A stretch of 64,000 bases of DNA from assembly GCA_014695195.1 (NCBI GenBank), contig JACJNW010000022.1, positions 124,001 through 188,000 of the forward strand. The letters are read 5' to 3'. The translations under genes were made by a program, and so were the position numbers. This document shows positions 25,917-38,040 of this stretch, piece after piece. Every line of letters begins with the position of its first letter. Position 1 is the stretch's first letter. Source of the stretch: Cyanobacteria bacterium FACHB-DQ100 (GTDB lineage Bacteria > Cyanobacteriota > Cyanobacteriia > Leptolyngbyales > Leptolyngbyaceae). Under the pieces are notes generated by a model, which searched no databases, was not told the DNA's origin, and worked only from the letters and a program-made list of their open reading frames with translations.

Positions 25917-28166
25917 TTATGCCGTCACGATGTACGGAGAATCGACTGATGCAACTCGTCCATCTCTGAGCAACGTTTGATAAACCATTGCCGAAACATC
26001 GGCGCGGGTCGCTTCTCGGTTCGGGTTAAACTGCTTCTGATTTGGATAGTTCACGACGATATCTGCCTGAACTGCTGCGGCTACTCGGTCTTGCACCGAT
26101 TGCGGAATCGCACTGCGATCGTCCAACACCGCCAAGATATTTGCATTGGCAGACGGAATGCCAAACCCACTTGTCAGCGACAAGACTAATTGCAGCCGCG
26201 TGACATTTTGATTTGGCTTGAAGGTTCCATCTGGGAAGCCGGAAATAAATCCAGCGCGGTAAGCTTGGTCGATCGCACTCCTCGCCCAAAAATCTCCAGG
26301 CACATCCGGGAAGCTGACTCCTGCTCGCTTTGGCGCTGGATTGAATGCCCGCGCAATCAAGGTGGCATACTGAGCGCGAGTCATCGCTGCATCGGGCTTA
26401 AAGGTGCCATCTGCAAATCCTTGAATCAAGCTCTGATTGGATAAGCCCAGAATGAAATCTTTTGCCCAATGATTGGTTACATCAATAAAGGCGATGTTGG
26501 TTGCATCAGGATTGACAATGTAAGCGGATGCGATCGTCGGTGCTTGACTCAGTGCCACTAGCGATTGATAAATAAACGTCGTCACTTCAGCACGGGTAAT
26601 TTCCTGCAAAGGGCGCAGTTGTGACAAGTTTGGGTAGTTCACCACTAAGCGGCGCTGCGTTGCGGCAGCGACTTTATCAGTGGCAAAGCTCGGAATCTGA
26701 GCGCGATCGCTATACAGTGCTAGCAGATTTTGCGTTCCACCAGATAGCCCTAACCCATTGACAAGGGCAACGATCGCTTGCGTCCGAGTGAGATTTAAGC
26801 CAGGTCGGAAAGTCCCATCTGGGAATCCAGTAATAAAGCCCATGCGATTCGCTTTTGTGATCGCTTCTGCTGCCCAGAAATTTGAGGGCACATCAGAGAA
26901 GTTTGTTGCAGGTTGCTTCAGCGGCAGATTAAAGCTTTTCGCCACGATCGCAGCAAACTGAGCGCGAGTTAATGAATTCTCTGGCTTAAAGGTATTGTCT
27001 GGAAATCCAGTGACCAGATTTCGACTCACGAGCGATTGGATAAATGCTTCTGCCCAATGCCCTCTGATATCCGTCAATCCAGCCGTCGGGGTTGGAGTCG
27101 GAGTCGGTGTGGGACTGGGAACTGGCGTGGGAGTCGGAGTCGGTGTGGGACTGGGAACTGGCGTGGGGGTCGGGGTTGGAGTCGGAGTCGGCGTGGGAGT
27201 GGGAACTGGCGTGGGAGTCGGACTCGGAGTCGGGGTTGGAGTCGGAGTCGGCGTGGGAGTTGGAGTTGGGGTTGGAACTTGACTCACCACGAAATCGACT
27301 GCGCCTTGAACTCTCGATGCATTTAATTGATTCCCGACAGAGACGATCGTAATTTGGGGATTCGTCGCATTCTGAAGATCGAACTCGCCGTTATCGCGGA
27401 TGGTATTACCGCCGGGATCTTGACTGCTGCCTAAATTCGGGGCGCTGCTTGCTAAGATGACAACGCCGGTTTCGGTATTTCGCTCGATCGTATTGCCCCG
27501 CAACACTGGACGCGCTGCATTACTCAACACGATACCGGCGCGGTTCTGAAACACTCGGTTTTCAAGGATTAATGGTGCTGCATCATCGCCGATCGCAAGT
27601 CCAAACCCGGTGTTCTGACAGACATTGCGCCGGAATTCCCCTTTGGCATTGCGAGAAAAAGAAGCACCATTGGCATCGTTTTGTACAAATACGCAATCGG
27701 TCACGATCGGATTTGCCGTTCCCGTAGCAAACACACCCTCACGTTTGCAGTTAGTGAAGGTGCAATTGGCGATCGTCGGAGCCGTTGATTCTACCCAAGC
27801 GCCTGTTCCGCGTGAATTCGGATTTGTCACCGTCACACCGCGTACCTGAGCATTGGTTTCGAGCCGGAAGGTGATATTCTGTCCTGCCCAAGACGGACTC
27901 AAGAAGTTCCCGCCTCCTTGAACTAAAATCCCACTGCCTTTATTCGACTCGTTGCCGATCACCGTCACTCCAGACGGGATCACGATCGGGAAAAATTCAC
28001 CGCTTTCTGTGCTGTAAGTTCCGGGAGCGAGTTGAATCGTAGTGCCAGAGCGGGCTTGTTGAAGAGCGCGGGCGATCGTTTTGAGCGGAGCCGATGACGT
28101 TCCGGCAGCACCATCGTTACCGCTACTAGGATTGACAAAGAGAATGGGAGAGCCTGCTTGAACCAT
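25917..28166 (-). CDS. DUF1565 beta-helix protein with Thr-Pro linker and S-layer homology domains
   Basis: 749 aa. Residues 8-285 form a right-handed beta-helix of the DUF1565 type ([33 protein letters not shown], then repeated N/V-rich coils). Residues about 297-365 are almost pure PT/TP repeats. Residues about 370-749 hold SLH domains in two similar blocks ([40 protein letters not shown] and repeats of FPDGTFKP or FADGTFKP). SLH domains usually bind cell-wall polymers and imply a surface location. No signal peptide is visible at the N-terminus ([10 protein letters not shown]), so export is unexplained. It precedes ccmO on the same strand, with a 127-bp gap. Confidence 0.88.
27088..27277. 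repeat. low-complexity repeat coding for the Thr-Pro linker
   Basis: Repeats of GGAGTCGGAGTCGGTGTGGG-like units on the plus strand, coding for (TP)n on the minus strand with occasional VPS or SPT breaks. Longer blocks such as GGGACTGGGAACTGGCGTGG are duplicated, showing growth by slippage. The linker separates beta-helix and SLH domains. Confidence 0.85.
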
Positions 28167-28539: not shown

Positions 28540-29040
28540 GTGCTTGACTCTCTTCTCCCACCGCTCAACGAGCATAATTTGCCGTATCCCGATACCATCC
28601 ATCCGATCGTGGTGCATTTTGTCATCGCGATGGTATTGTTCGCGTTCGTCTGCGATACGGTTAGCTACTTCACGCGCAATCCAAAATTGGCAGAGGTCAG
28701 CTGGTGGAACTTGGTATTTGCTACAGTCTCTATCTTTATTGCAGTCATTTTTGGACAAATTGAAGCGGGACTTGCAGAGCCTTATGATGCAGCCGTCTCG
28801 ACGTTGAATCTACATTCCATCCTGGGTTGGTCGCTGTCTGGAGTTTTGGCAGCCGTGACCGGATGGCGCTATGTCCTTCGACTGCAGAACAAACCCCAGC
28901 TTCCAACCCCTTATATTGTTGCCAGTGTTGCGCTGGTGGGACTGGTCATTGCTCAGACCTACTTAGGGGACTTATTGGTATGGGTTTATGGGCTCCATTC
29001 TGTTCCCGTCGTAGAAGCCACAAGAGGAGGACAACTGTGA
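28540..29040 (+). CDS. DUF2231 domain membrane protein
   Basis: 166 aa, starting at GTG 28540. Four hydrophobic segments; the DUF2231 hallmark is IHPIVVHFVIAMVLFAFVCD near residue 20, with a conserved His pair. Such proteins are frequently found just before ARTO/cox genes in cyanobacteria and may bind haem or help oxidase assembly; the role is not established. Its stop overlaps the next gene's GTG start, so the two are coupled. AGGAGG of the next gene's ribosome site lies inside its 3' end. Confidence 0.82.
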   Translation: MLDSLLPPLNEHNLPYPDTIHPIVVHFVIAMVLFAFVCDTVSYFTRNPKLAEVSWWNLVFATVSIFIAVIFGQIEAGLAEPYDAAVSTLNLHSILGWSLSGVLAAVTGWRYVLRLQNKPQLPTPYIVASVALVGLVIAQTYLGDLLVWVYGLHSVPVVEATRGGQL

Positions 29041-29645
29041 CGACCAAAACAGAACTCCTAGATCAAATGGCGGGTCAGCTAGGAGCGAATCATTTACCGT
29101 ATGTGATCCCAATCCATCCCAATCTGGTGCATTTAACCTTGGGACTGTTCATTGTGGCGATTTCGTTTGATATTGTCGGGGTGCTATTTCCGGTGGATAA
29201 AGCCCTATTTAAGTATCTGGCGATTCCGGTCACGCGATCGGGCTTGTTTGATGTGGGTTGGTTCAATATGGTAGGAGCGGCTGTGATTACCTTCTTCACC
29301 GTTGCTTCTGGCTTTTATGAAATGCTGCTCGCTGATCCGATCCCCGATGTTAAAAGCGTTTGGGGGCTACAGGCACTCGAAACAATGGTCTGGCATGGCG
29401 TGGGTGGCGTATTGCTGCTGACTCTGATCGTGGGCATGACCGTGTGGCGAGGATTTCAGCGCTTCGCTTGGCGAAAAGACATGGCGCGCCAAGTGCAGTG
29501 GAGCTACATTGCGGTGGGTCTTCTGATCTTTCTGATTATGTTTGTTCAAGGAACATTGGGAGCGCACTTAGGCGGCGAATTTGGCATTCACACCACAGCG
29601 GATCAATTGATTAAAGCAGGCGAAAACCCCGATCTTAAACTGTAG
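29037..29645 (+). CDS. DUF2231 domain membrane protein, second copy
   Basis: 202 aa. I start at GTG 29037 (VTTKTELLDQ), which has a strong AGAGGAGG ribosome site at the right distance and a 4-bp overlap with the previous stop; the frame itself is open further upstream to 28827 but that part is out-of-frame coding sequence of the first DUF2231 gene. The signature IPIHPNLVHLTLGLFIVAIS near residue 24 is the same as in its neighbour. Four membrane segments. Subunit II of the oxidase follows 6 bp later. Confidence 0.85.
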   Translation: MTTKTELLDQMAGQLGANHLPYVIPIHPNLVHLTLGLFIVAISFDIVGVLFPVDKALFKYLAIPVTRSGLFDVGWFNMVGAAVITFFTVASGFYEMLLADPIPDVKSVWGLQALETMVWHGVGGVLLLTLIVGMTVWRGFQRFAWRKDMARQVQWSYIAVGLLIFLIMFVQGTLGAHLGGEFGIHTTADQLIKAGENPDLKL

Positions 29646-29651
29646 AAGCTC

Positions 29652-30590
29652 ATGAAACTCCGCCCGATTTTAGTAATTAGTGCCTTTGTCGCTTTTCTAA
29701 CGACTGCCAGTTTCTGGATGGCAAAGCAGGCGTACTCCTGGTTTCCGCCGCAGGCTTCGGCTGAGGCAAAACTGTATGATGGACTATTCAGCATTCTGAC
29801 GGGGATCGGAACGTTTATTCTGCTCGGCATTTCGTTAGTTGTGTTGTATTCGGTGTTGTTTCAACGTGCCGAAAAGTATGACTTTAGCGATGGCCCGCAC
29901 ATTGAAGGCAATACGACGATCGAAATCGTCTGGACAGCAGCTCCCTTACTGTTAGTGCTGTGGATTGCAACCTATAGCTATCAAATCTATGATGCAATGG
30001 CAATTCGCGGCCCGATGGAACTGGTGCATCTTCACAATCCCATGGAGATGCAAGCCGCTTATGCTATGAACTTGAATGAAGTGAAGCCAGCGCTCCCGAC
30101 CGAGAACATTGATGTCACTGCGAAACAATGGGCTTGGGTGTTCCGCTATCCCGATCAGAACCTTACTAGCACAGAGCTACACTTGCCTGTCGATCATCGC
30201 ATTCATCTCACCTTGCACTCAGATGATGTGCTACACGGATTCTATGTGCCTGCATTCCGGTTAAAGCAAGATGTGATTCCGAGTAAAACGATCGACTTTG
30301 AGTTCACGCCGATTCGAGTTGGTAAATATCGATTGCGCGATTCGCTCTACAGTGGCACTTACTTTGCCTCGAATCAAGCCGATGTTATGGTTGAATCCCA
30401 GGAAGACTACGATCGCTGGTTAGCCACGGCTGCGAGTCAATCTCCCACTCCCGCCTTTAATCCCGCTGCCGCAGAACACGCCCGCAGTGCTGAGAAAAAT
30501 GTGGTTCGAGGTTGGAAAACGGTAGAACCTGCGCCGCCTCCGGTTGTGAACTTTGCACCCAAACAAGAACCGACTAGCCCTGCTGCTTAG
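29652..30590 (+). CDS. ctaC2: terminal oxidase subunit II, ARTO type without CuA ligands
   Basis: 312 aa. Two N-terminal transmembrane helices (about 7-27 and 50-73) precede a periplasmic cupredoxin domain with WTAAPLLLVLW, KQWAWVFRYP and DDVLHGFYVPAFRLKQDVIP. The first CuA histidine position (VLHGF) remains, but the loop that normally reads C-x-E-x-C-G-x-x-H-x-x-M is replaced by RDSLYSGTYFASNQADVMV with no cysteine. Loss of CuA is a known feature of cyanobacterial alternative respiratory terminal oxidases, thought to take electrons from quinol rather than cytochrome c. Second structural step of the operon. Confidence 0.9.
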   Translation: MKLRPILVISAFVAFLTTASFWMAKQAYSWFPPQASAEAKLYDGLFSILTGIGTFILLGISLVVLYSVLFQRAEKYDFSDGPHIEGNTTIEIVWTAAPLLLVLWIATYSYQIYDAMAIRGPMELVHLHNPMEMQAAYAMNLNEVKPALPTENIDVTAKQWAWVFRYPDQNLTSTELHLPVDHRIHLTLHSDDVLHGFYVPAFRLKQDVIPSKTIDFEFTPIRVGKYRLRDSLYSGTYFASNQADVMVESQEDYDRWLATAASQSPTPAFNPAAAEHARSAEKNVVRGWKTVEPAPPPVVNFAPKQEPTSPAA

Positions 30591-30617
30591 CAAATTAAAA
30601 TAACTGGATAAATTGCG

Positions 30618-32306
30618 ATGACGAATGTTCCTGTAGAAGCGATCGAGGTCGCCCGCCAGCAACCGTATCCTGGTGCGCCCGATAACTGGAAGCGATTTTT
30701 CACCTTCAGCACCGATCATAAGGTGATTGGGATTCAGTACATTGTGACAGCGTATGTCTTCTTTTTGATCGGCGGATTGCTGTCGATGATCATGCGCGGT
30801 GAATTGATTACACCCGAAGCAGATTTGGTCGATCGAACAGTCTATAACGCATTGTTCACGATGCATGGTTCGATCATGCTATTTATGTGGACGTTTCCCG
30901 TGTTGGTGGGATTGAGTAACTATCTGGTGCCATTGATGATCGGGGCGCGAGATATGGCATTCCCAAGGCTGAATGCGGTTTCGTTCTGGATGATCCCTGT
31001 GGTTGGGATTTTGATGATCGTCAGCTTTTTTGTTCCGGGTGGCCCCTCTCAATCCGGCTGGTGGGCTTATCCGCCTGTGAGCTTGCAGAATCCGACTGCA
31101 AATCTGATTAATGGGCAGGTGTTATGGATTCTTGCGGTCGCGATTTCGGGTGTGTCCTCGATCCTGGGCGGCGTGAACTTTGTCACGACGATCGTGAGAA
31201 TGCGTGCGCCCGGAATGACTTGGTATAGAACGCCTGCGTTTGTCTGGTCAGTGTTAGCTGCACAGCTCATTCAGCTTTATGGACTGCCTGCCCTGACTGC
31301 CGGAGCCGTGATGCTCTTGTTCGATTTAACTTTGGGAACGAGCTTCTTTGCGCCAGAGCGGGGCGGAAATCCATTGCTGTACCAGCACTTTTTCTGGTTC
31401 TATTCCCATCCTGCCGTGTATGTCATGGTGCTTCCCGTGTTTGGGATATTCTCCGAGGTGCTTCCGGTTTATGCGAGAAAACCTTTGTTTGGGTATCGAG
31501 TGATTGCCACTTCATCACTCATGATCACCTTCATTAGCGGCTTAGTGTGGGTGCATCATATGTATGCCAGCGGGACTCCCGGATGGATGCGAATTCTGTT
31601 TATGTTTACCACGCTGCTTGTTTCTGTTCCAACTGGAATTAAGGTTTTTGGTTGGGTGGCAACGATTTGGGGTGGAAAGCTGCGGCTGACGACTTCGATG
31701 CTGTTTGCTCTCGCTGGAATCACAAATTTTGTGTTTGCTGGCATTACTGGAGTGATGTTGGGATCAGTGCCGATCGATATCCACGTCAACAATACCTACT
31801 TTGTCGTCGCGCACTTTCATTACGTGATTTACGGCACGATCGTCTTTGGTATCTATGCAGGTTTGTATCATTGGTTCCCGAAAATGACCGGGAGAATGTA
31901 TTACGAAGGACTTGGAAAGCTACACTTTGCGCTGACTTTCATTGGTACAACCTTATGTTTCTTCCCGATGCACTTTGCGGGACTGATGGGAATGCCGCGC
32001 CGAGTTGCTTCTTATGATCCTGAGTTTGCGCTGTGGAATGTGATGGCAAGTATCGGTGGATTTTTGCTCGGAATCTCGGTGTTGCCCTTCATTCTGAACG
32101 TGGTGAGTTCTTGGATTCAGGGGGAAAAAGCACCGAACAATCCGTGGCGTGCGATCGGTCTCGAATGGCTCACTACTTCCCCGCCTCCGGTCGAGAACTT
32201 TGAAAAAATTCCTGTGGTGATTTCACCGCCTTATCAGTACGGCAAAAGTCAACCGCTTATCGAGAATCAGTCCGAGATTGTCCCCGCTGATGGAGTAACG
32301 ACATGA
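30618..32306 (+). CDS. ctaD2: haem-copper terminal oxidase subunit I
   Basis: 562 aa with about 12 transmembrane helices. The low-spin haem His is in TMHGSIMLFMW (H83). CuB and cross-linked Tyr are in FYSHPAVYVMVLP, further CuB histidines in WVHHMYASG, and the haem a3/a His pair in VVAHFHYVIYG, so the catalytic core is complete. Proton-channel elements of A-type oxidases (NxxxP region NYLVPLMIGARDMAFPRLN) are visible. Catalyses O2 reduction to water with proton translocation. Follows subunit II by 27 bp. Confidence 0.95.
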   Translation: MTNVPVEAIEVARQQPYPGAPDNWKRFFTFSTDHKVIGIQYIVTAYVFFLIGGLLSMIMRGELITPEADLVDRTVYNALFTMHGSIMLFMWTFPVLVGLSNYLVPLMIGARDMAFPRLNAVSFWMIPVVGILMIVSFFVPGGPSQSGWWAYPPVSLQNPTANLINGQVLWILAVAISGVSSILGGVNFVTTIVRMRAPGMTWYRTPAFVWSVLAAQLIQLYGLPALTAGAVMLLFDLTLGTSFFAPERGGNPLLYQHFFWFYSHPAVYVMVLPVFGIFSEVLPVYARKPLFGYRVIATSSLMITFISGLVWVHHMYASGTPGWMRILFMFTTLLVSVPTGIKVFGWVATIWGGKLRLTTSMLFALAGITNFVFAGITGVMLGSVPIDIHVNNTYFVVAHFHYVIYGTIVFGIYAGLYHWFPKMTGRMYYEGLGKLHFALTFIGTTLCFFPMHFAGLMGMPRRVASYDPEFALWNVMASIGGFLLGISVLPFILNVVSSWIQGEKAPNNPWRAIGLEWLTTSPPPVENFEKIPVVISPPYQYGKSQPLIENQSEIVPADGVTT

Positions 32307-32938
32307 CCGCAGAAAGTTCGTTTAGCGCAACGCGCAACGCCGACGGCACCGCAAAATCTATAGAAGCCGAGATTCGCTCCGAGCAGGCACATGAGGAAGC
32401 AGAAAATAGTAAGTTCGGCTTTATTGTGTTCCTGCTGTCTGAGAGTGTGATTTTTCTCAGCTTCTTTGTTGGCTACAGTGTTTTCAAAACCAGTAATTCT
32501 GATTGGTATCCGCCTGGAGTCACTCATCTAGAGACAAGAGAGCCGTTGATCAACACGATCGTTCTTGTTTCCAGTAGCTTTGTGATCTATGTCGCTGAAC
32601 GATATCTGCATGATAAAAAGCTCTGGGGCTTTCGACTATTTCTGCTAGCAACAATGGCAATGGGGGGTTACTTCCTTTATGGTCAAGCCGTTGAATGGAG
32701 TCAACTGAGCTTTGGACTGACCTCTGGCGTATTCGGTGGATTGTTTTATCTATTAACCGGATTTCATGGCTTGCACGTTCTCAGTGGAATTTTGCTGCAA
32801 ACGGTGATGATTGGTCGATCGTTTATTCCCGGTAACTACGACAGTGGTTACTTTGGCGTAGAAGCGACCTCTTTGTTCTGGCACTTTGTCGATGTCATCT
32901 GGATTATTCTGTATGTTCTGATTTACGTCTGGCAGTAG
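32303..32938 (+). CDS. ctaE2: haem-copper terminal oxidase subunit III
   Basis: 211 aa. Five hydrophobic helices from about residue 38. Diagnostic segments: FIVFLLSESVIFLSFFVGYS, FYLLTGFHGLHVLSGILLQ and ATSLFWHFVDVIWIILYVLI. Start ATGA overlaps the ctaD stop by 4 bp, showing tight coupling. The protein supports the assembly and stability of subunit I. Confidence 0.93.
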   Translation: MTAESSFSATRNADGTAKSIEAEIRSEQAHEEAENSKFGFIVFLLSESVIFLSFFVGYSVFKTSNSDWYPPGVTHLETREPLINTIVLVSSSFVIYVAERYLHDKKLWGFRLFLLATMAMGGYFLYGQAVEWSQLSFGLTSGVFGGLFYLLTGFHGLHVLSGILLQTVMIGRSFIPGNYDSGYFGVEATSLFWHFVDVIWIILYVLIYVWQ

Positions 32939-32948
32939 GAGCAGCGCC

Positions 32949-34451
32949 ATGATTATTGATGATCAATTCTATGATGTGATTATTGTCGGCACAGGCGCAG
33001 GAGGCGGCACTCTGGCGCGTAAGCTTGCTCCTACAGGCAAAAAGATTCTAGTTCTAGAGCGTGGCTTTTTCCCGGTGCGAGAAAGCTCCCAAACTCAGGA
33101 CATCGAACTGTTTAAAAAAGAACAGTTTCACGCCCCGGAACAATGGTACGACGAGAATGGAGAGCCGTTTTATCCGCAAACCAGCTATTGTGTCGGCGGT
33201 AATACAAAGATCTATAGCGGAGTCTTGATGCGAATGCGCGATCGAGACTTTGAAGCCGTTGAACATCAAGACGGCATTTCTCCAGAATGGGGCGTAAAAT
33301 ACTCAGACTTCGAGCCTTACTACACCGAGGCTGAAAAGCTATACCAAGTTCACGGCAAGCTAGGCGACGACCCGACAGAACCCACGCACAGCGAAGACTA
33401 TCCATTTTCTGAAGTTGCACATGAATCGCACATCCAAACCGTGTGTGATGGACTTTCCAAACAAGGCTTACATCCCGCTTATTTACCTCTGGGCATCAAT
33501 CAGCAAGGGAGAACTGATGCCGAAGATACAGGGATTACTCCGATTCTAGACTATGAGAATGTGACGCTGAAGACTTCTGCTCAAGTTGTTTGTTTACATA
33601 CCAATCCTTCTGGCACAGAAATCAAAGCTGTTGAAGCTAAGGTTGGTGAACAATCGTATCTCTTCCTTGGGCATATCATTGTGTTGTCTTGTGGTGCGAT
33701 CAACTCTGCGGCATTGCTATTACGATCGCAAAACGAAAAGCACCCAAACGGCATTGCGAACCATTCCAATCAAGTCGGACGCAATCTAATGAAGCAACAG
33801 CTATCGGTTGTGGTGCAACTGATGGCAGACGCGAACTCTGGACTATTCCAGCGCACCCTTGGAATCAATGATTTTTACTGGGGCAATGGTGATTACACCT
33901 ATCCAATGGGTCATGTCCAGAACTCAGGTGGCATCTTGCAAGATGTGATTTTTACCGAAGCACCTCCGGTTCTCTCTGCGATTTCGCGAGTGCTGCCCGG
34001 ATTTGGAATTCGCCAATTGGCAACGCGATCGCTCGGTTGGTGGTTACAAACTGAAGACTTACCGAATCCCGACAATCGCCTCCGCTTTGTCGGAGATAAG
34101 CTGCACATCGACTACACCGCCAACAATGTCGAAGCACACGATCGCTTAGTCCATCGCTGGATTGATGCGCTCAAACAAGTCGAAGCTTCCCAGCCTTCAA
34201 TGTTCAATCGTGCTGCCCATCCTCGCAGTGATATGCCGATTCAGGTAGTGGCGCATCAATGCGGCACCTGTCGATTTGGCGAAGATCCCAATACTTCCGT
34301 GTTAGATCTCAACTGTCGCGCTCATGAGGTTGATAATCTCTATGTTGTTGATAGTAGCTTCTTTCCATCGAATGCGAGTGTGAGTCCGTCGCTTACTGTG
34401 ATGGCGAATGCGTTGCGAGTGGGCGATCACCTGGTTGAGCGGTTGAAATAA
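32949..34451 (+). CDS. GMC family FAD oxidoreductase
   Basis: 500 aa. FAD-binding motif VIIVGTGAGGGTLARKLA at 10-27, the GMC block YCVGGNTKIYSGVLMRMR near 79, and a C-terminal GMC domain with VAHQCGTCRFGEDP and DSSFFPSNASVSPSLTVMANAL, including the catalytic His/Asn region. Only 10 bp separate it from ctaE, so it is a member of the oxidase operon. GMC enzymes oxidise alcohols or sugars; feeding electrons to the quinone pool used by ARTO is a reasonable inference. Substrate unknown. Confidence 0.88.
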   Translation: MIIDDQFYDVIIVGTGAGGGTLARKLAPTGKKILVLERGFFPVRESSQTQDIELFKKEQFHAPEQWYDENGEPFYPQTSYCVGGNTKIYSGVLMRMRDRDFEAVEHQDGISPEWGVKYSDFEPYYTEAEKLYQVHGKLGDDPTEPTHSEDYPFSEVAHESHIQTVCDGLSKQGLHPAYLPLGINQQGRTDAEDTGITPILDYENVTLKTSAQVVCLHTNPSGTEIKAVEAKVGEQSYLFLGHIIVLSCGAINSAALLLRSQNEKHPNGIANHSNQVGRNLMKQQLSVVVQLMADANSGLFQRTLGINDFYWGNGDYTYPMGHVQNSGGILQDVIFTEAPPVLSAISRVLPGFGIRQLATRSLGWWLQTEDLPNPDNRLRFVGDKLHIDYTANNVEAHDRLVHRWIDALKQVEASQPSMFNRAAHPRSDMPIQVVAHQCGTCRFGEDPNTSVLDLNCRAHEVDNLYVVDSSFFPSNASVSPSLTVMANALRVGDHLVERLK

Positions 34452-34492
34452 CGATCGCGCCATAATAGTCCTATCGAGTTGGGGAATTGTCG

Positions 34493-35301
34493 ATGTCTCA
34501 AGATCTGCTAAACGACGAAGACATCATCACGGAACTGGACATCAGCCATCTGACGATCGAGGACGATACCCCGGTGGACAACTTTCAATCTGAAGAACAG
34601 CAACGGCTCTTAGTCGAACCGCTCTATAGTTCCAGAGCGCTGTCCGCCCCCTTCCTAGCGGCTGCAAATGTTGGATTATTCTACAAGCTCAAGGGCGATC
34701 CGATCGTACCGGATGCGATGCTTAGCCTCGGAGTCCAACGTGCTGACTTCTCCGAACGGCGAAACCGCTCCTACTTCGTGTGGGAGTTTGGTAAAGTTCC
34801 CGAAGCTTGCATCGAGATTGTGTCTAACCAGGAAGGGGATGAAGTCACCCTTAGCCAGAAGTCTCGACAGAAAGGGAAAACGACGGCGAAAAAAGATATT
34901 TATGCTCAAATCGGTGTTCGTTGCTATGTGGTGTTCGATCCGCTTCAACAGATTCAAGCTGATATGAATGGGGCATTGCTGCGCGTGTGGGCGATCGCAC
35001 AAAGCGGTTATGTGGAATTGACCCCCCGGAGGGACTCTCCCAGCCGGGGCAATTTGTCTGGCTAGAAGCCGTTGGATTGGGTTTGTCGCTCTGGGAAGGA
35101 CAGTTTGAAGACGAAGTGATGCGGCTGTGGTTGCGGTGGTGCGATCGTTCTGGTCAGGTGATTCCGACGGGAGCCGAAGGTCTAGAAATCGAGCGTCAAC
35201 GCGCCGAAATCGAACGCCATCAAGCCGAAGCAGAACGCCAACGTGCCGAACGACTAGCTGAGCGACTCCGGGCACTAGGGATTGATCCCGATGAAGGCTA
35301 G
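34493..35301 (+). pseudogene. Uma2 family protein, frameshifted at a C6 run
   Basis: Two frames, 34493-35065 and a downstream one ending at 35301, together match the intact paralogue at 37243-38040 over its full length. The break is at the C run 35022-35027: with seven C the sequence reads ELTPPEGLSQPGQ, as in the paralogue's ELTPPQGITQIGQ; with six it terminates at 35065. The coiled tail IERHQAEAERQRAERLAERL is kept, and both halves look otherwise undamaged, so the mutation is recent or a sequencing miscount. TTG 34487 is an alternative start. Confidence 0.8.
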
Positions 35302-36259: not shown

Positions 36260-37246
36260 ATGGGGATTTACTTTTATTGGGGCGAGGATAGCTTTGCGCT
36301 CTCTCAAGCCGTGAAGCGCTTGAAACAAAAGACACTTGACCCAATGTGGGAAAGTTTTAATTTTGATAAATTCTCGTCGGATCAAAGTGATGCGATCGCT
36401 CAAGCGCTGAATCAGGCGATGACTCCTCCATTTGGTGCGGGGAATCGCCTCGTCTGGCTCTCAGAAACAACTCTAGCGCAACGCTGCCCTGAAGATGTCC
36501 TAACTGAACTCGATCGCACCCTCATCGCCTTGCCTGAAACGACAACGCTTCTATTGACCAGTTCGACCAAACCCGATGGACGACTAAAATCAACCAAACT
36601 GCTCCAGAAGTACGCGACCCTTGAAGAATTCGCCCTCATTCCACCTTGGAAAACTGAACTAATTAGCAAACAAGTGCAGCGAGTTGCACAGGAATTAGAT
36701 CTGAAACTCACGCAAGGCGCGATCGACTACATTACCGAAGCTGTCGGCAACGATACGCGCCAACTTTACAGCGAACTCGAAAAGCTCAAAATGTTCGCAG
36801 GTGAATCCAAAAAGCCGCTGAATGAAAGCGCGATCGCGCCGTTAATCACTGCCAGTACACAAAGTTCACTGCAACTGCTGACAGCAATTCGGCAGGGAAA
36901 AACAGCAGAAGCATTAGAGCTGGTGAGCGATTTACTGCGGCAAAATGAGCCAGCTTTGCGAATTGTGAGTACGCTGGTTGGGCAGTTTCGCCTGCGACTC
37001 TGGATCAAGCTGATGCTGGAATCAGGAGAGCGAGACGATCGAGAAATTGCTAAAGCTGCGGAGCTAAACAACCCAAAGCAGCTTTACTATCTCAAACAAG
37101 AACTCTTCTCAACTTCACTCACCCAACTGCAAAGCGCTCTACCCTTGCTGCTCAATCTAGAATTCAGCCTCAAGCGGGGTCACGATGAAACGATCGCCCT
37201 TCAAACCAAAACGATCGAACTGTGTCAAATTTTCCGAAGCCGCTAA
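36260..37246 (+). CDS. holA: DNA polymerase III subunit delta
   Basis: 328 aa. Subunit of the clamp loader that opens the sliding clamp. Recognised by the N-terminal YFYWGEDSFALSQAVKRLKQ, the degenerate AAA-type domain, the central LLLTSSTKPDGRLKSTKLLQ and the C-terminal collar region LTAIRQGKTAEALELVSDLL and LEFSLKRG. There is no functional Walker A, as expected for delta. The gene is monocistronic and its stop overlaps the stop of the minus-strand Uma2 gene by 4 bp. Confidence 0.92.
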   Translation: MGIYFYWGEDSFALSQAVKRLKQKTLDPMWESFNFDKFSSDQSDAIAQALNQAMTPPFGAGNRLVWLSETTLAQRCPEDVLTELDRTLIALPETTTLLLTSSTKPDGRLKSTKLLQKYATLEEFALIPPWKTELISKQVQRVAQELDLKLTQGAIDYITEAVGNDTRQLYSELEKLKMFAGESKKPLNESAIAPLITASTQSSLQLLTAIRQGKTAEALELVSDLLRQNEPALRIVSTLVGQFRLRLWIKLMLESGERDDREIAKAAELNNPKQLYYLKQELFSTSLTQLQSALPLLLNLEFSLKRGHDETIALQTKTIELCQIFRSR

Positions 37247-38040
37247 ACTTCATCGGGATCAATTCCCAGTGCTCTCAGGCGCTCTGCTAAGCGTTGCGCT
37301 TTTGATTCGGCTTCATCTGCTCTCAGACGCTCGTTTTCCGCTCGCTCTGCACCTGTCGGAATCACTTGCCCAGATCGATCGCACCACCGCAACCATAATC
37401 GCGTAATCTCTTCCTCAAACTGTCCTGACCAAAGCGTGAGACCTAATCCCACTTCCTCTAACCAAATCGACTGTCCGATCTGGGTGATTCCTTGCGGTGG
37501 TGTTAATTCCGTACACCGACCTGCAAAATTTGACCAGATTCGCAGTAAGGCTCCATTCATTTCGGTTTCACCCTGAATTTGTCGGAGCGGGTCAAACACC
37601 ACATAGTAGGGAATGCGGATTTGGGAATAGAGATCTTTTTTAGTCATCGTCTTTCCCTTCTGCTGCGATTTTCGACTCAGAATCAGTTCATCGCCCTCTT
37701 GATTCGAGACAATTTCGATGCAAACTTCTGGCAGCTTGCCAAACTCCCACACAAAATAAGAGCGGTTCTCTTTTTGAGAAAAGTCCTCAGCACATTGCAC
37801 ATCTAAACTGAGCATGACATCGGGAACGACTGGGTCGCCCTTCAGCTTATAGAACAGCCCGACATTCGCCGCCACAAAAAACGGGGACGGTAACGCTTTA
37901 GAACTGTAGAGCGGCTCGACTAACAGCCGTTGCTGTTTTTCAGATTGAATATTGTCCACCGGCATATCGTCCTCGATCGTCAAATGGCTAATGTCTAGCT
38001 CCGTGACGATTTCATCCGTATTGAGAAGTTGACCCGTCAT
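37243..38040 (-). CDS. Uma2 family (DUF820) protein with coiled C-terminal tail
   Basis: 265 aa. VPDVMLSLDVQ, RSYFVWEFGKLPEVCIEIVS with the E-x-V-S element, KKDLYSQIRIPYYVVFDP and VGLGLTLWSGQFEEEITRLW identify a cyanobacterial Uma2 subgroup. The tail from about 225 (ERAENERLRADEAESKAQRL) is a charged coiled coil ending LGIDPDE. It is about three-quarters identical to the frameshifted copy at 34493-35301 in opposite orientation. Nuclease fold is known for the family; function is not. Confidence 0.87.
   Translation of the reverse strand: MTGQLLNTDEIVTELDISHLTIEDDMPVDNIQSEKQQRLLVEPLYSSKALPSPFFVAANVGLFYKLKGDPVVPDVMLSLDVQCAEDFSQKENRSYFVWEFGKLPEVCIEIVSNQEGDELILSRKSQQKGKTMTKKDLYSQIRIPYYVVFDPLRQIQGETEMNGALLRIWSNFAGRCTELTPPQGITQIGQSIWLEEVGLGLTLWSGQFEEEITRLWLRWCDRSGQVIPTGAERAENERLRADEAESKAQRLAERLRALGIDPDEV

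Follow-up and report, generated by a model that had tools for sequence, protein, structure and literature searches.

The 64,000-nucleotide stretch of the genome of Cyanobacteria bacterium FACHB-DQ100 analysed here (the window) carries six plus-strand genes at 28540-34451, in the order DUF2231-DUF2231-cox2-cox1-cox3-GMC, with adjacent genes overlapping or spaced by no more than 27 nt. They encode two membrane proteins of the DUF2231 family, the three subunits of an alternative respiratory terminal oxidase (ARTO) and a flavoprotein of the glucose-methanol-choline (GMC) fold, referred to below as GMC1. This operon is a conserved cyanobacterial respiratory unit that joins ARTO to a pair of four-helix membrane proteins of the DUF2231 family and to a soluble GMC1, and a chance arrangement is excluded because the gene order recurs across genomes. 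Within the unit, GMC1 may have been re-used as a flavin partner of the oxidase.

Organization of the ARTO operon

The first gene of the DUF2231 pair encodes protein A (28540-29040, 166 aa, GTG start), which matches Pfam PF09990 with 140 bits. Protein B (29037-29645, 202 aa) matches the same family with 123 bits and is read from a GTG start, chosen by us, that overlaps the preceding stop. The next gene, cox2 (29652-30590; Pfam COX2_TM and COX2), encodes an ARTO subunit II without CuA. The VLHGF histidine of this subunit is retained (codon 30234-30236), and a Cys-free segment, DSLYSGTYFASN (30339-30374), stands at the place of the CuA ligands when it is aligned with the CuA subunit II of the same genome and with solved structures. 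Subunit I, with a YSHPAVY motif, is encoded by cox1 (30618-32306; Pfam COX1, 529 bits), which overlaps by 4 nt with cox3 for subunit III (32303-32938; Pfam COX3, 116 bits). A 10-nt spacer (32939-32948) leads to GMC1 (32949-34451, 500 aa; Pfam GMC_oxred_N and GMC_oxred_C), which is without a Cys loop. By alignment, His436 of GMC1 (codon 34254-34256) is equivalent to H1147 of fructose dehydrogenase, and Ser479 (codon 34383-34385) stands at the place of N1190.

The source genome (5.5 Mb, 44 contigs) contains one further COX1-family match, on contig C23, whose subunit II has the CuA motif CAELCGAYHGAM; no DUF2231 or GMC match lies within the 1.5-kb flanks of this CuA oxidase. Among three DUF2231 matches in the genome, one is outside the operon, on contig C19, and the GMC of the operon is the sole GMC_oxred_C match. 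GMC1 is 97% identical to the GMC of Cyanobacteria bacterium FACHB-63. Scans for promoters (3 found versus 7.7 in shuffled sequences) and terminators (10 versus 6.3, none of them on the plus strand between cox3 and GMC) are uninformative on co-transcription.

Linkage of GMC1 to ARTO across cyanobacteria

A total of 386 genomes of the phylum were scanned with the GMC protein (E <= 1e-40), ARTO cox2 and PF09990. At a cut-off of at least 223 bits (the next match reached 185 bits), ARTO cox2 was found in 115 copies in 97 of the 386 genomes. The GMC matches are of two main sorts: 48 align in one piece with at least 45% identity (GMC1), and in the others an insert around residue 185 divides the alignment (GMC2). 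A single distant match, also aligned in one piece, has 35% identity (genome G360, locus L209). A rescan of the 386 genomes with a GMC1 profile recovered these 48 places, all scoring at least 727 bits, ahead of a next match at 634. In 47 of the 48, GMC1 starts no more than 6 kb downstream of a same-strand ARTO cox2. The remaining one, in genome G195, lies behind cox1-cox3 on a contig whose start falls inside the operon, and its cox2 is found close to the end of a different contig. Of the 97 ARTO genomes, 48 carry GMC1, compared with none of the 289 that lack ARTO (Fisher p 2e-34, with each genome taken as independent), absences being less sure than presences in scans that scored the best three to four GMC candidates per genome. 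The linkage to ARTO, 48 of 48, is spread over 14 families. GMC1 accompanies 24/24 ARTO copies in family f19, whose genomes are taken by their size (1.7-3.7 Mb) to be picocyanobacteria-like, 2/58 in family f7 and 22/33 in the remaining families, G195 included. A further f7 copy, in genome G385, has a GMC2 piece 5,991 nt away that the script scored as adjacent.

A second search, of contigs, used an alignment of 24 ARTO-linked GMC proteins and returned 398 relatives, the best 80 of which were kept, corresponding to 79 loci. This set is biased to close relatives and is cyanobacterial by title or genus, except for one metagenome-assembled genome (MAG) labelled Gracilibacteria. Among 69 named loci with 3 kb or more of upstream sequence, 67 have a same-strand cox3 upstream of GMC1, and where 6.5 kb or more is available the full set of two DUF2231 and three cox genes precedes GMC1 in 59 of 61. 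The exceptions are L164 and L187. In the L071-L208 set, 92 of 100 ARTO-type GMC proteins have a cox3 open reading frame (ORF) upstream, at a median distance of 62 nt (50 nt or less in 43 of the 92 loci, more than 1 kb in 9). Viewed from the oxidase, both DUF2231 genes stand before cox2 at 111 of the 114 ARTO loci that have 1.6 kb or more of upstream sequence (some genes are present in two loci); at L077, one of the three exceptions, the second copy is shortened.

The ARTO-GMC link is real. A preliminary description of this DNA had placed a GMC gene 10 bp behind subunit III and two DUF2231 genes in front of the oxidase. Both placements stand, and the association with ARTO, on which that description hinged, holds in other cyanobacteria, with GMC behind cox3 as a conserved unit. 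That GMC1 is a chance-inherited neighbour with no functional tie to ARTO is highly improbable: its absence from 56 of 58 f7 ARTO copies would fit such a history, but its confinement to ARTO loci over 14 families, and to positions behind cox3 in 67 of 69 named loci, does not.

Other arrangements occur at single loci. At L080 (5711-8317), cydA and cydB, encoding cytochrome bd oxidase, stand between ARTO cox3 and GMC, and at L140 cydAB lies directly before the DUF2231 pair; these are 2 of the 141 loci searched. L192, an ARTO-GMC locus in the MAG labelled Gracilibacteria, has the GMC frame in two pieces and is probably a mis-binned cyanobacterial contig. L071 and L081 each contain a second, more distant ARTO copy clustered with genes for an NDH-2-like flavoprotein, a short-chain dehydrogenase/reductase (SDR), a lactonase, DoxX and GMC2.

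Loss of active-site parts in GMC1

The AlphaFold2 (AF2) model of GMC1 has a predicted TM-score of 0.91, and its nearest fold is fructose dehydrogenase (Foldseek E 3.8e-41, TM 0.81). In a hidden Markov model alignment with fructose dehydrogenase structures, whose titles list the variants N1146A, H1147A and N1190A, the catalytic His corresponds to window residue 436 and the Asn place to residue 479. In the sections of PMC3541233 on the GMC active site, this His is described as conserved family-wide and as the catalytic base in P2O, and the catalytic pair is given as His-His or His-Asn. These positions were compared in an alignment of 143 distinct GMC proteins, left after 13 identical ones had been dropped from 156 with a length of 450 aa or more; shorter pieces, among them L077 and the frame-broken L192, were left out.

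All 121 ARTO-type GMC proteins have lost the catalytic Asn, and neither Asn nor His occupies its place, which is taken by Ser (88), Gly (27), Pro (4) or Thr (2). The base His is kept in 56 of the 121; the other 65 carry Asn, Tyr, Phe, Gly, Ser or Leu instead. The Cys loop is gone in 114 and persists in seven, from Scytonema, Brasilonema, Drouetiella and their kin. The window's GMC1 has Ser479 in place of Asn and no Cys loop, and keeps His436. The flavin adenine dinucleotide (FAD) motifs are nearly invariant in the same proteins, with each glycine of GxGxxG in 120/121 and GGN in 121/121. The state of the Asn goes with gene position. Of the 143 distinct proteins, 113 are encoded directly behind cox3, none of which has the Asn, and none of the 22 Asn-bearing proteins lies directly behind cox3. 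The remaining eight lack the Asn; six of them have less than 1.5 kb of upstream sequence and two (L164 and L187) have no cox3.

GMC1 is not a pseudogene, even where the His is lost, because its dN/dS is far from neutral: 0.035-0.124 in 14 close pairs, His-less members included. These values exceed those of cox1 in 10 of the 12 comparable pairs, two pairs having no cox1 value. The Fe-S fructose and gluconate dehydrogenases are recognised by a Cys loop together with a PF13618 small subunit; the window's GMC1 has no such loop, and no PF13618 match was found in the source genome. The alcohol- or sugar-oxidising activity that the preliminary description suggested for this GMC is therefore not borne out, with the Asn lost in 121/121, the His in 65/121 and the Cys loop in 114/121. 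A protein that databases would call a GMC oxidoreductase in many cyanobacteria may oxidise neither sugars nor alcohols. Judged by its residues, the window's own GMC1, with His and with Ser for Asn, may hold residual dehydrogenase activity.

Origin of GMC1 among GMC2 paralogs

The GMC2 proteins are the nearest relatives found, with 46-56% identity to the window's GMC1 over 11 sequences. All 22 have the base His, the Asn and a loop of three to five Cys (CIRCxxCDGFPC-like) at the position of CCGNNNCMPIC in fructose and glucose dehydrogenase. A script that looked for columns separating GMC1 from GMC2 at 90/80% found none among the window columns; the differences between them therefore amount to the loop and the catalytic pair.

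A tree was built by a quick method with SH-aLRT support and no bootstrap, from 102 proteins thinned at 88% identity plus four outgroup rows, after removal of the pair and loop columns. The ARTO-type GMC proteins form one clade of 82 rows (SH-aLRT 100) nested inside GMC2. Within this clade, loop-bearing rows are basal with modest support (83-89), and the loop-less rows form a single clade (100). Excluding the outgroup rows, the fewest changes needed are one for the Asn, one for the loop and six for the His.

Many GMC2 loci also contain varying sets of genes for an SDR, a GH63/MGH1-like hydrolase, an SMP-30 lactonase, an aquaporin-type MIP, DoxX or VOC. Because GMC2 paralogs sit among sugar genes, the GMC1 ancestor likely oxidised sugars, and sugars may be oxidised near ARTO through GMC2 in genomes carrying both. 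The order ARTO-GMC1-GH63-GMC2 occurs in 9 of the 19 f19 regions with enough downstream sequence (L073 7549-13444, L083 2210-8114, L112, L113, L115, L121, L123, L124 and L126). In these picocyanobacteria-like genomes, the arrangement possibly ties the breakdown of compatible solutes to respiration.

These neighbours bear on the possibility that GMC1 itself still works as a sugar or polyol dehydrogenase, using an altered catalytic pair, and reduces plastoquinone, which ARTO would then oxidise again. Its closest folds are fructose and glucose dehydrogenases, the His survives in 56 of 121 proteins including the window's, and GMC2 is often found among SDR, GH63/MGH1-like, SMP-30 or MIP genes, in nine f19 regions directly following ARTO, GMC1 and GH63. 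Set against this are the universal loss of the Asn, the loss of the His in more than half of the proteins and of the Cys loop in nearly all, and a genome with no PF13618 small subunit. An active enzyme of this kind is somewhat doubtful, but it is a serious alternative in the lineage to which the window belongs.

Electron entry sites of ARTO

ARTO lacks the electron entry site of cytochrome c oxidases. Compared with the CuA oxidase of the same genome, the window's subunit II has D and S in place of both CuA Cys of CAELCGAYHGAM, and F and N in place of the His and Met. D and S likewise occupy these Cys positions in all 132 distinct sequences of ARTO subunit II, none of which has a Cys in the loop. 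Of the 132, 131 have F for the second His ligand, 94 retain the Met and all retain the VLH histidine. The CuA-less subunit II that nevertheless keeps VLHGF, as the preliminary description had read it, is thus a general property of ARTO.

In subunit I, the examined haem and CuB histidines and the K-channel Lys are kept in 111 distinct sequences. In A2-type haem-copper oxidases, a YSHPxV motif takes the place of the D-channel Glu. The window's subunit I has this motif, within FWFYSHPAVY, and falls in the A2 class by that definition; Ala stands at the E286 place in 111/111 distinct ARTO cox1 sequences. The quinol site of Escherichia coli CyoB (reference sequence from MG1655) comprises R71, D75, H98 and Q101. 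None of the four residues is kept in the 111 distinct ARTO cox1 sequences, and the window has I, L, V and A, respectively, at the corresponding places. There ARTO is closer to the CuA oxidase of the source genome, whose residues are identical or similar, than to bo3. The sequence thus offers nothing in favour of a quinol site of the bo3 type in ARTO subunit I. By these data, ARTO is missing both of the textbook places where electrons enter, namely CuA and the quinol site of bo3.

This bears on the established description of the enzyme. A review places ARTO among the quinol oxidases of bo3 type, with plastoquinol as its donor (PMC6616624), a reading in which the DUF2231 proteins would be merely structural subunits. 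The absence of CuA agrees with it, but the replacement of all four quinol-site residues, and the like residues of a CuA oxidase at the same places, make it rather unlikely.

The DUF2231 pair as a candidate electron entry

Both DUF2231 proteins contain four invariant His. In protein A these are residues 21, 26, 92 and 153 (42/42, and 113/113 rows in a larger set with 109 distinct sequences), and in protein B residues 27, 32, 120 and 185 (43/43). The AF2 model of protein B has four transmembrane helices (mean pLDDT 88), and, judged from the helix ends, its four His all lie at one membrane face. Lys and Arg are concentrated on the opposite face. Per protein, the two loops of that face have 4.7 Lys plus Arg in protein B and 3.5 in protein A, versus 0.8 and 0.5 in the loop of the His face and 1.3 and 1.4 in its termini. 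By the positive-inside rule, the His cluster is therefore predicted to be periplasmic. These His may constitute a putative haem, metal or quinol site, and the DUF2231 pair would be the best candidate for electron entry into ARTO.

The idea that the cluster is wholly specific to ARTO-linked DUF2231 was dropped, as 23 further DUF2231 proteins from the phylum also have His at two of the four positions; from this comparison, only His32 is clearly specific. Close to these positions the 23 proteins carry extra His (in KHPLHP and RHK), and their charge pattern is reversed. One of them, encoded on contig C19 of the source genome (G000:C19, L213 4203-4724), and 22 similar stand-alone proteins probably have the opposite membrane orientation to the ARTO pair, judging from their loop charge. 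Sequence searches of the PDB returned, for protein A, only small photosystem I subunits at about E 0.05 or worse and, for protein B, nothing. STEAP4, cytochrome b561 and cytochrome b6 were considered as relatives and set aside, since they were scattered among many unrelated four-helix bundles.

A proposed role for GMC1 in the ARTO unit

The loss of catalytic parts from a protein that keeps its FAD site and remains under purifying selection suggests re-use. With a probability of about 0.5, GMC1 is a re-used flavin partner of ARTO within the conserved unit and no longer an ordinary sugar or alcohol dehydrogenase. The protein arose inside the GMC2 clade and shed the Asn, in most cases the Cys loop and often the His. 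Its flavin could then serve in electron transfer to or from quinone, in redox sensing or in assembly. Electrons would enter ARTO via the DUF2231 pair, whose periplasmic-side His cluster would replace CuA; this entry route is possible but tentative, falling a little short of even odds. Taken together, ARTO would represent a third mode of feeding, with neither CuA nor a bo3 site but with a DUF2231 His or haem centre on the periplasmic side, served by a flavoprotein that descends from a sugar dehydrogenase and is shorn of its dehydrogenase site. This composite proposal is unlikely as a whole. If true, the DUF2231-flavoprotein module could be the route of ARTO to cell-surface Fe(III) reduction.

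An overlapping possibility is that GMC1 is a non-redox or sensing accessory of ARTO, active in assembly, stability or sensing of the FAD state. The conserved fold and FAD motifs beside a decaying catalytic pair agree with this, as does the strict linkage, which persists in L080, where GMC1 stays with the oxidase genes despite the intervening cydAB. However, the conservation of the FAD motifs suggests that the flavin still matters; a purely accessory role is also rather improbable.

Several observations weigh against GMC1 as a re-used flavin partner and the DUF2231 pair as the entry point. The window's own GMC1 retains the base His, and the distant outgroup L209, on a long branch, has the His and the Cys loop yet Ser at the Asn place; Ser alone therefore need not abolish activity. 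GMC1 is missing beside 56/58 f7 and 5/9 f6 ARTO copies, and direct reading of 10-kb stretches around ARTO in f7 gave no GMC match in 16/16; ARTO can therefore work without GMC1. Conversely, L164 and L187 carry GMC1 without ARTO within 9 kb upstream, and inspection by eye showed no oxidase genes nearby. The lesser certainty of absences in the genome scans counts here as well. Stand-alone DUF2231 proteins likewise carry several His, and the DUF2231 model, compared by Foldseek (PDB, viral) and VIA-align, gave no match above the helical-bundle background and no haem site. Finally, a soluble flavoprotein on the negative (N) side of the membrane cannot directly reach a His cluster on the positive (P) side, and a quinone or other carrier would therefore be needed between them.

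Neighbouring genes

Upstream of the operon and divergent from it, 25917-28166 encodes an S-layer-homology protein with a right-handed beta-helix and a long PT-repeat linker. Downstream, two similar Uma2-like genes are found at 34487-35065 (by Pfam) and 37243-38040 (by eye), the first beginning 35 nt past the GMC stop.

Comparison with known systems

Cytochrome bo3 of E. coli is a haem-copper oxidase with a subunit II that lacks CuA, and ARTO is alike in both respects. It differs from bo3 in a subunit I without the residues R71, D75, H98 and Q101, with Ala for E286 and with the YSHPAVY motif. GMC1 has its fold and FAD motifs in common with the large subunits of membrane-bound fructose dehydrogenase and FAD glucose dehydrogenase. 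Unlike these, it lacks the Cys loop and the N1190 equivalent, often also that of H1147, and its genome has no PF13618. The GMC2 paralogs differ from GMC1 in keeping the His, Asn and Cys loop (22/22) and in never lying directly behind cox3 (0/22).

A CuA-less ARTO with two upstream ORFs has already been described, in the ARTO passages of PMC6616624. The Cox3/ARTO operon of Anabaena PCC 7120 (alr2729-alr2730-coxB3-coxA3-coxC3) resembles that of the window in having two ORFs followed by cox2-cox1-cox3 and a CuA-less subunit II; from their position, alr2729 and alr2730 would be DUF2231 genes. As printed in that source, the Anabaena operon has no GMC; in the window, cox3 is directly followed by GMC1 as an additional gene. 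PMC10119275 reports the ARTO genes from low-iron Prochlorococcus and from Synechococcus as well, and neither 'GMC' nor 'glucose-methanol-choline' appears in the main text of that article. Among the excerpts of open-licence literature returned by searches, none links ARTO to GMC. Studies in Synechocystis or Anabaena would not show GMC1 if, as family f7 and some f6 genomes suggest, these organisms lack it. The donor to ARTO, stated as plastoquinol by likeness to bo3 in the review passages cited above, now has two conserved DUF2231 proteins as concrete candidates for its point of entry.

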